This document shows positions 10,086 to 32,019 of a DNA stretch of 32,019 nucleotides, in pieces (position 1 is the first letter of the stretch; each line of letters opens with the position of its first letter). Below the pieces are notes generated by a model that saw only the letters and a list, made by a program, of their open reading frames with translations, made no database searches and was not told where the DNA came from. The stretch is from Candidatus Woesearchaeota archaeon (GTDB taxonomy: Archaea > Nanobdellota > Nanobdellia > Woesearchaeales > 21-14-0-10-32-9): NCBI GenBank assembly GCA_021736975.1, contig JAIPET010000011.1, forward strand, positions 1 through 32,019, given 5' to 3'. Made by a program: the position numbers and the translations under genes.

Positions 10086-10130
10086 ACAATTAAAAACAAA
10101 CAACCTAATATATAAATTTTTTCACGAAAG

Positions 10131-10255
10131 GGTCTTGTCCGGAAAGGAATAAAAAATTATACTAAATGCACAGCAAAACCTATTCGCTCTCTTTAAGATC
10201 GCATGTGCCTTTATGGGGGTTTAGCATACAAAAATGCGATATTCTAAACATTACC
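10131..10255. mobile_element. MITE-like hairpin element, copy A (degenerate)
   Basis: This 125-bp copy starts GGTCTTGTCCGGAA and ends in a decayed complement (TTCTAAACATTACC). It keeps the inner stem (TATACTAAA against TTTAGCATA with one mismatch) and the GCATGTGCC core shared with the copies at 15584 and 31556. The 8-bp sequence CACGAAAG flanks it on both sides (10123-10130 and 10256-10263), a target duplication. The decayed right arm suggests the oldest of the three insertions. No protein is encoded. Confidence 0.75.
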
Positions 10256-10416
10256 CACGAAAGACATAATATCTCATTCTCATTATCTTTATATAGTAAA
10301 AAATAAGTTTAACTTGTTTTAAAAACAAAAAAATCAACATATTTTACTTAACTAAACACACTTTTTTCAATTTAATTCAAATAAACAACAAAAACAAATA
10401 TATTCACCTTACAAAC

Positions 10417-15365: not shown

Positions 15366-15583
15366 ACAAAAATAAATCAAAAACAAACTTTAAATAATTT
15401 CTTAAAAACAATTTTATCCACAAAACAACAACAAAATAACAAAAAATCTTATTTTATTCAACCATAAAAAGAAAAAAACAAACAAACACTTAATTTTATT
15501 AACAAAAACCAATACAACCACCTCAAATATCTTCAAAACACACACATAATTGAAATCTAGACAAAACATAAAAACAAACATCA

Positions 15584-15706
15584 GGCTCTAGCCGGAAAAG
15601 AATAAATTTGTATACTGGAACACGGCACAGCATATGCATTCTCTTCGAGACTGCATGTGCCTCGATGGGCGCCAGTATACACAAAAGTGTTATTCCGGCT
15701 AGAGCC
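15584..15706. mobile_element. MITE-like hairpin element, copy B
   Basis: The 123-bp element begins GGCTCTAGCCGGAA and ends with its perfect 14-bp complement. Inside are a second perfect stem (TGTATACTGG with CCAGTATACA) and an inner hairpin (GGCAC...GTGCC with TATGCA/TGCAT and a TCTC-TTC-GAGA tip). AAACATCA (15576-15583 and 15707-15714) flanks it on both sides; the following base is G on both sides too. It sits 48 bp upstream of tRNA-Ser. The 200 bp before it (15366-15583) is A/C-rich DNA in which I see no gene. Confidence 0.85.
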
Positions 15707-15754
15707 AAACATCAGAAACCTTTAAAAACAAAATAACATTCTGTAACAAAATAT

Positions 15755-15877
15755 GCCCAGGTCGCATAGCCTGGTATTGCGCAGGATTGCTACGGACAAC
15801 TTTGTACGTATGAAAACCTACAATACCACAAATATCCTGTCCCTTTGGGATCGTGAGTTCAAATCTCACCCTGGGCG
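15755..15877 (+). tRNA. tRNA-Ser (GCU) with 41-nt intron
   Basis: Acceptor arms GCCCAGG (15755-15761) and CCTGGGC (15870-15876) pair fully, followed by discriminator G. The D arm contains TAGCCTGGTA. The anticodon stem CAGGA (15782-15786)/TCCTG (15835-15839) encloses TT-GCT-A then A, so the anticodon is GCU (15789-15791). A class II variable arm TCCC-TTT-GGGA and the T arm GTGAG-TTCAAAT-CTCAC confirm tRNA-Ser. The intron, 15793-15833, is at the canonical 37/38 position. TTG pairs with CAA next to the splice-site bulges, a somewhat relaxed bulge-helix-bulge. CCTTTAAAAAC near 15718 is the likely TATA box. Confidence 0.93.
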
Positions 15878-30890: not shown

Positions 30891-31556
30891 ATGATGATAA
30901 TAGCAGGAGTAGAAGAAGCAGGCAGAGGACCAGTCATAGGACCAATGGTAATGGCAATATGCGCAATAAATAAAGAAGAAGAATACAAATTAAAAAATAT
31001 GGGTGTAAAAGACTCAAAACTACTTACACCAAACCAACGAGAAGATATGTTTGAACAAATAAAAGAAATGACGACACATGCAATAATCATTCTCCAACCA
31101 AAAGACATAGATAATGCTCTTAACGACCCAGCAATGAACCTAAACAAACTAGAAGCAGTAACAACTTCAAAACTAATAAACTCAATATCAAAAGCAAAAA
31201 AACCAGATGAAATAATACTAGATTGTCCGTCAAACAACATACCAGTTTACGAACAATACGTCAGAGCAAAACTAGAAGATCAAAAACAAAAACTAATACC
31301 AGAACACAAAGCAGATTTAAATCACATAATAGTAGGTGCTGCATCAATACTAGCAAAAGTAACAAGAGATAGAGAAATAGAAAAAATCAAACAACAAATA
31401 GGCCTAAACTTTGGCTCAGGATACCCTTCAGACCCAACAACAATATCATTTCTAAATCAAAATTGGAAAACACACGAAAAAATTTTTAGAAAAACCTGGA
31501 AAACATACCAAAAAGTCGCAAACAAACACAAACAAAAAGGACTAGGAGATTTCTAG
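30891..31556 (+). CDS. rnhB: ribonuclease HII
   Basis: RNase HII cuts the RNA strand of RNA-DNA hybrids, including single ribonucleotides left in DNA. The 221-residue product has GVEEAGRGPVIGPMV at the start, MGVKDSKLLTP, ILDCPSNN and HKADLNHIIVGAASILAKVTRD, which supply the usual acidic residues. The first catalytic Asp of the standard DEAGRG motif is Glu here (residue 8), a conservative but unusual change. The C-terminus GLGDF ends at a TAG whose G is the first base of the MITE copy at 31556. Leaderless start likely. Confidence 0.92.
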   Translation: MMIIAGVEEAGRGPVIGPMVMAICAINKEEEYKLKNMGVKDSKLLTPNQREDMFEQIKEMTTHAIIILQPKDIDNALNDPAMNLNKLEAVTTSKLINSISKAKKPDEIILDCPSNNIPVYEQYVRAKLEDQKQKLIPEHKADLNHIIVGAASILAKVTRDREIEKIKQQIGLNFGSGYPSDPTTISFLNQNWKTHEKIFRKTWKTYQKVANKHKQKGLGDF

Positions 31557-31678
31557 GTCTTGTCCAGAAAGGTATGGAACTGTATACTGGAGCACGGCAC
31601 ATCCTATGCATTCTCTTCAAGAATGCATGTGCCTCAATGGGCGCCAGTATACAAAATGCTGTTATTTTGGACAAGACC
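31556..31678. mobile_element. MITE-like hairpin element, copy C
   Basis: The 123-bp element begins GGTCTTGTCCAGAA and ends TTTTGGACAAGACC, pairing at all 14 positions with one G-T. The same inner stem as copy B (TGTATACTGG/CCAGTATACA) encloses an inner hairpin ATGCATTCT-CTTCA-AGAATGCAT. GATTTCTA flanks it (31548-31555 and 31679-31686), followed by G on both sides. It entered the TAG stop of RNase HII, whose third base it supplies, so the protein is unchanged. Confidence 0.88.
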
Positions 31679-31721
31679 GATTTCTAGGAAAATTTATAAA
31701 CTTATTAATAAAAATAACATT

Positions 31722-31934
31722 ATGCTTATTAGAAATAAAATTGGAAGAAAAATCACCAATTCAAGTAGCTTTTTCTCTGGATTCATAACCACTCAACAAC
31801 TTAAAAAAGATGTAGATTCATTCTTTGGTTTTGAAAGACTCTCAACAGATGTAGAACTAAGTTCAATCAGACGATTAAATAAAATGACCTACTCCCGCGA
31901 CCTAAAGGTCGGGGTATCTCAGGCTGTGGCGTGA
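31722..31934 (+). CDS. short frame possibly truncated by the tnpB element
   Basis: ATG 31722 follows TTTATAAA (31692-31699) at leaderless spacing and opens MLIRNKIGRKITNSSSFFSG. The 70-codon frame runs into the IS605-type end sequence near residue 55 and stops inside it. Residues 1-54 could be the start of a host gene cut by the insertion, and the last 16 are element sequence. No family is recognisable. Confidence 0.35.
   Translation: MLIRNKIGRKITNSSSFFSGFITTQQLKKDVDSFFGFERLSTDVELSSIRRLNKMTYSRDLKVGVSQAVA
31887..31918 (-). repeat. IS200/IS605-type right-end hairpin
   Basis: Directly after the tnpB stop (reading the minus strand) lies ACCCCGACCTTTAGGTCGCGGG, a hairpin with CCTTTAGG at its tip. 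This is the usual end structure and guide-RNA (reRNA) scaffold position of tnpB elements. The double hairpin at 17095-17229 carries the same CCTAAAGG core. Confidence 0.6.
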
Positions 31935-32019
31935 TGTAATCCTTGATTTTTGATGTAGTTGTCTACTGTTGAGAATTCGTTGTAGCCTACTGTTGTTGCG
32001 CATCCTCCTGCGCTCCACA
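31919..32019 (-). CDS. 3' end of a TnpB-like gene
   Basis: The last 32 codons on the minus strand read ...AGGCATTVGYNEFSTVDNYI... ending LHHATA at a TGA (31919-31921). The tail follows no catalytic motif within the window, but its direct abutment on an IS605-type end hairpin and the C-rich short tail fit the variable C-terminus of archaeal TnpB RNA-guided nucleases. The gene continues beyond the window. No tnpA is visible here. Confidence 0.5.
   Translation of the reverse strand, partial: WSAGGCATTVGYNEFSTVDNYIKNQGLHHATA

Follow-up and report, generated by a model that had tools for sequence, protein, structure and literature searches.

The window analyzed here (the whole 32,019-nt stretch of a Candidatus Woesearchaeota contig) contains a 123-bp element at 15584-15706 whose ends (GGCTCTAGCCGGAA and TTCCGGCTAGAGCC by direct reading of the sequence) are inverted and match at 14 of 14 positions. 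A second stem lies inside (TGTATACTGG/CCAGTATACA, 10 of 10 bases, 15609-15618 pairing with 15672-15681), and AAACATCA is repeated directly on both sides (Table 1). All of these dimensions had been given in a preliminary description of the locus and were confirmed to the base. Folded as a single strand, the element reaches -60.4 kcal/mol, versus -29.0 ± 3.5 kcal/mol for shuffled sequences (z = -8.9). The adjacent tRNA-Ser recognized in that description is a real gene (Rfam tRNA model, 42.6 bits; anticodon GCU by inspection); its intron is present, and ARAGORN missed it. Two further copies of the element, one of them decayed, lie elsewhere in the window, and a GC-rich stretch (CTCCCGCGACCTAAAGGTCGGGGTATCTCAGGC, 31890-31940) stands out from the surrounding AT-rich DNA close to the contig end.

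Table 1. Positions of the element, its parts, its neighbors, and the two further copies in the window
Feature	Position	Strand	Remark
Left target-site duplication (TSD) AAACATCA	15576-15583	.	
Left outer terminal repeat GGCTCTAGCCGGAA	15584-15597	+	Resembles autonomous IS5-type ends in G167, G197, and G118
Inner end motif / hairpin arm P1 GTATACTGG	15610-15618	+	GTATACTG equally spaced in autonomous IS left end
Core 5' internal loop AACAC	15619-15623	+	Consensus RGCAC
Core helix P2, 5' arm GGCAC	15624-15628	+	Partner 15657-15661; covariation
Core distal hairpin P3	15634-15656	+	Pairing kept, sequence variable
Core helix P2, 3' arm GTGCC	15657-15661	+	
Core 3' internal loop TCGATGGGCG	15662-15671	+	Consensus TCNATKGGCG
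Hairpin arm P1' CCAGTATAC	15672-15680	+	
Right outer terminal repeat	15693-15706	-	
Right TSD AAACATCA	15707-15714	.	
BRE-TATA element GAAACCTTTAAAAA	15715-15728	+	Directly abuts duplication; conserved in G001
tRNA-Ser(GCU) gene with intron	15755-15877	+	Downstream of BRE-TATA at 15715-15728
Second copy	31556-31678	+	Same core; outer ends GGTCTTGTCC
Second-copy TSD GATTTCTA	31548-31555 and 31679-31686		
Second-copy BRE-TATA	31687-31700		
Third copy, decayed	10131-10255	+	
Decayed-copy TSD CACGAAAG	10123-10130 and 10256-10263		
Decayed-copy BRE-TATA	10122-10109	-	

Copies within the genome

The genome to which the window belongs (G000; 1.31 Mb, 98% complete) carries about 29 related elements, nearly all with an 8-bp duplication of their own. 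Besides divergent members, there are 14 full-length copies that are 94-100% identical to the window element, differ from one another at 0-8 of 123 bases (mean, 3.2), and each have a perfect 8-bp duplication unlike that of any other. Across the genome, the end pattern matched 23 times per strand, versus 0 times for a reversed control. Since so many near-identical copies each have their own duplication, the window element is a member of a real and recently mobile family of miniature inverted-repeat transposable elements (MITEs): it is short, lacks a transposase gene, has terminal inverted repeats and a TSD, occurs in many copies, and shares its ends (the outer repeat and an equally spaced GTATACTG) with autonomous elements in genomes G167, G197, G118, and G110. 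The preliminary description had proposed just such a non-autonomous, recently mobile element in a small DPANN-type archaeon, to be abandoned if the genome held no other copies; many were present. A sister MITE family of 163-164 bp (L023-L029) has the same IS-type ends and a different interior, and it too lies upstream of promoters. No viral, phage, or plasmid carriers of the element were found.

Autonomous relatives and the probable parent transposase

When the end sequence was sought in 15 carrier genomes, two convergent end pairs approximately 0.9 kb apart were found. At G197:C8:4020-4951, the element is flanked by a perfect duplication (TAATCTAT), and its transposase gene is interrupted; the autonomous element on G167:C48 has an intact ORF of 298 aa. 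Both proteins match DDE_Tnp_1 (PF01609; E = 1.7e-13) as their sole Pfam match, and D116, D186, and E239 are invariant in six transposases, the other five of which are 27-72% identical to the first. The DDE_Tnp_1 domain and DDE triad are those of an IS5-type parent, as are the single ORF of about 300 aa, the element length of about 0.92-0.95 kb, and the 8-bp TSD, since the IS5 family includes groups with 8-bp TSDs, such as ISH1. The best curated IS5 model (NF033579), however, gave 106.5 bits, under its cut-off of 140, so we call the parent IS5-type rather than a confirmed IS5 family member. Perfect 8-bp TSDs also surround the autonomous elements in G197, G110, and G118. The left end of the G167 element (GGTCTGTCCAGAAAGGAATAAAAGTGTATACTG) contains the MITE outer repeat and an equally spaced inner GTATACTG, so part of the second stem of the MITE is an IS end motif, a point missed by the preliminary description, which had rightly recognized the 10-bp stem itself. 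The MITEs bear two left-type ends, and the inner part of the IS right end differs.

Among 353 genomes from the order, 52 encode a relative of the transposase at E ≤ 1e-8, nine of them at 43% identity or more. The preliminary description was right that the window contains no transposase, and this extends to the whole assembly, which has no relative at E ≤ 1e-8 and no PF01609 match at all; its MITE copies are thus orphans. Because the autonomous elements are present at one copy per genome, it is from the ends that we infer MITE transposition by an IS5-type enzyme. The IS6 and IS1595 families likewise combine 8-bp duplications with GG...CC ends, and parents of these types had been suggested initially. 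Such a parent is extremely unlikely: for IS1595, PF12762 is absent from the genome and was matched once among 40 relatives, and for both types the search for DDE transposases with matching terminal repeats that the preliminary description recommended led instead to IS5-type PF01609 elements in related genomes. ISL3 was also considered as parent and rejected, with PF01610 found in 0 of 19 carrier genomes.

Insertion register at BRE-TATA promoters

On one side of nearly every copy, positions 1-14 outward from the duplication carry the consensus RWAAMWTTTWWAAA, which is an archaeal BRE and TATA box. Elements were scored against the textbook consensus on the better of their two sides, with the background scored likewise. 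Among the 29 elements of the genome, sister family included, 18 scored at least 13 of 14, versus 1.1% of random positions, and the best match within 45 nt fell at offset 0-1 in 21 (9% at random; P about 4e-16). The same offset was found in 17 of 23 copies elsewhere (again versus 9%; P about 2e-13), and among 27 elements of other genomes whose ends could be resolved, 17 scored at least 12, versus 2.5%. Autonomous IS in G197, G110, G118, G242, and G158 keep the same register. Elements are randomly oriented with respect to the promoter (11 to 10). Shortly downstream of most copies lies the start of an ORF or tRNA, and in six the start codon is exactly 35 nt past the duplication; a short, fixed distance of this kind is expected for leaderless archaeal genes. 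From their sequence and these downstream starts, the flanking motifs are predicted to be real promoters.

The same-genus genome G001, which has no copies of the element, retains the tRNA-Ser promoter (GAAACCTTTAAAAAC) with no element upstream, and the element is also missing from two other orthologous loci. The empty-site comparison suggested in the preliminary description thus yielded orthologous promoters free of the element, but since the 8-bp target itself has diverged in G001, precise insertion is supported rather than proven. At one promoter, two elements stand one after the other with three copies of TACAAATA around them, indicating that the insertion site is reusable. Taken together, register-exact targeting of promoters is well supported; the preliminary description had missed it, as it had the structured interior common to elements with different ends.

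The conserved core

Searching 353 genomes from the order with a covariance model built on the 71-nt core gave matches in 19, and a broader model added four more, giving 23 from one order. When 371 genomes sampled across the phylum were searched, all matches were confined to that same order. Named genomes with the core pattern are Candidatus Woesearchaeota ARS73 and one Nanoarchaeota bin. A genome from another family of the order (G034) has one copy, 70% identical, with compensatory changes. Over 75 sequences, 22 of 22 pairs showed changes in both partners, with pairing in 93.5% of cells versus 65% when shuffled. The constant parts are the unequal loops RGCAC and TCNATKGGCG, which flank helix P2 and are kept across genera.

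Outer ends around the core are IS5-type GGCTCTGTCC, GGCTCTGTAGAA, GTACGTATTTAGTTGC, GGCTAATATGAAACC, or unrecognizable. In G195, GTACGTA ends flank an IS66-family transposase (L196; PF03050, E = 3.9e-33; NF033517 above cut-off) in one copy whose own TSD is not recognizable, and core elements with GTACGTA ends have perfect TSDs and adjoin promoters. Going by this single IS66 copy, the ends with which the core travels belong to two or more transposase families that are unrelated. Its presence in elements with different ends is real. Transposition does not depend on it, since the sister family is mobile with the ends of the window family and another interior.

No IS ends or TSD can be recognized on the core elements of G195, G218, and part of G170. 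In the end-less core hairpins of G218 (L076-L125) and G195 (L055-L102), the outer stem varies between copies yet pairs. In some hairpins (L100, L109, L114, L101, and L118), one core sits on the tip of another in the opposite orientation, and the first stems of the two are of kinds that usually accompany different end types. Extra hairpins enlarge the tips or loops of core elements in G200 (L188-L195), which reach several hundred bases. Repeats starting GGCTAATATGAAACC adjoin several copies in the genome of the window (flanks of L019, L010, L026, and L037), and ends of this type enclose the same core in G197 (L201).

Discussion

The element is a MITE with a structured core inside that was probably moved in trans by an IS5-type transposase, since lost, and inserted upstream of a BRE-TATA promoter. 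Two IS ends enclose the 71-nt core, and the enzyme acting on them would be an IS5-type DDE transposase (PF01609) that the genome no longer encodes. Integration duplicates 8 bp and occurs at one fixed position immediately upstream of the BRE, here that of the tRNA-Ser(GCU) promoter. The transposase may recognize TBP and TFB bound at BRE-TATA as a promoter complex, or the bend at the upstream edge of that complex; either would leave the promoter intact and allow the site to be hit again. Selection may maintain the core as a fold of the DNA itself (hairpin or cruciform) that is useful to the element, and it could switch between sets of ends by recombination between cores.

Alternatively, the transposase could read the AT-rich BRE-TATA sequence directly, without TBP/TFB, which would also yield the sharp flank consensus. 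We lean against this reading but consider it a real possibility, as the observations that speak against it are not decisive: elements with ends matching the IS66 family occur at the same register (L104, L062, and L189), a finding that a host complex common to both would explain more readily, and starts at fixed distances downstream mark real promoters rather than any TATA-like run. Survivorship, in which insertion is random and a compact genome retains only those copies that fall between a promoter and the gene preceding it, would account for the intergenic location of the copies and for promoters being left intact. It predicts a spread of distances, however, whereas 38 of 52 copies lie at offset 0-1 against 9% expected, and it is accordingly very improbable.

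Explanations for the core invite similar comparison. That it is a functional RNA (a regulatory RNA or ribozyme) spread by transposition is suggested by the strong covariation, conserved internal loops, optional peripheral hairpins, and many copies, but it has no match in Rfam, its orientation relative to promoters is random, and wobble pairs, which should outnumber A.C mismatches under selection on one RNA strand, are not in excess (21 G.T versus 33 A.C in the alignment). Transcription of both strands could mask such a bias; even so, we consider a functional RNA unlikely. The lack of wobble excess together with the random orientation favors structure at the level of DNA or of both strands, and this is what the alignment points to. 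Template switching that repairs imperfect palindromes would produce simultaneous paired changes without wobble bias and in the absence of structural selection, and the nested cores and variable hairpin tips are compatible with it. Since it leaves the conservation of the two unequal loops across genera unexplained, it is quite unlikely to be the source of the covariation, though palindrome repair could contribute to it. More speculatively, the core might be a selfish DNA module that rides both IS5-type and IS66-type transposases by exchanging ends, with both enzymes using promoter-complex-directed insertion at harmless, reusable sites; we find this conceivable but doubtful.

The closest precedent is p-MULT 3/4 (TnGBS, ISLre2, and the ISKra4 group), a set of DDE transposons whose insertions lie upstream of promoters at a constant distance and leave them intact (PMC3942029), as do those of the family described here. 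TnGBS and related IS insert 15-17 bp upstream of the -35 element of sigma-A promoters, and an interaction with the initiation complex has been proposed (PMC3942029). In contrast to those bacterial sigma-A promoters and Mutator-type transposases, the present elements use archaeal BRE-TATA promoters and an IS5-type enzyme (PF01609), and orientation is fixed in most p-MULT 3 elements but random in ours; as the only Pfam match of the transposase is PF01609 rather than a Mutator-type domain, the family does not belong to p-MULT. Integration beside a transcription initiation complex is also known from Ty3, a yeast retrotransposon whose integrase and TFIIIB are cited in PMC3942029, and the protein contact suggested here would resemble it. 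Like other prokaryotic MITEs, such as Correia elements (reviewed in PMC10969869), the family is short, non-autonomous, and multicopy, has terminal inverted repeats and TSDs, forms stable hairpins, and often lies upstream of genes. It differs in keeping a fixed distance to promoters and in having an interior that goes beyond a deleted IS, namely, a covarying core common to elements with unrelated ends.

The window element itself is an ordinary MITE. Register-exact insertion upstream of promoters is known for bacterial sigma-A promoters and, in other elements, for eukaryotes, and among the papers searched we found no description of it for the IS5 family. For archaea, a preference of ISH6 for an AT-rich motif has been noted (PMC3942029), and the literature searched, mostly outside subscription papers, held no further description of promoter-targeted transposition; register-exact targeting of BRE-TATA promoters thus appears new for archaea. 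A structured, covarying interior common to mini-transposons with unrelated ends is unusual and is not seen in ordinary deletion-derived MITEs. Docking of an archaeal transposase on TBP/TFB becomes a directly testable question, and the register would offer a means of marking promoters from sequence alone in uncultured DPANN archaea.
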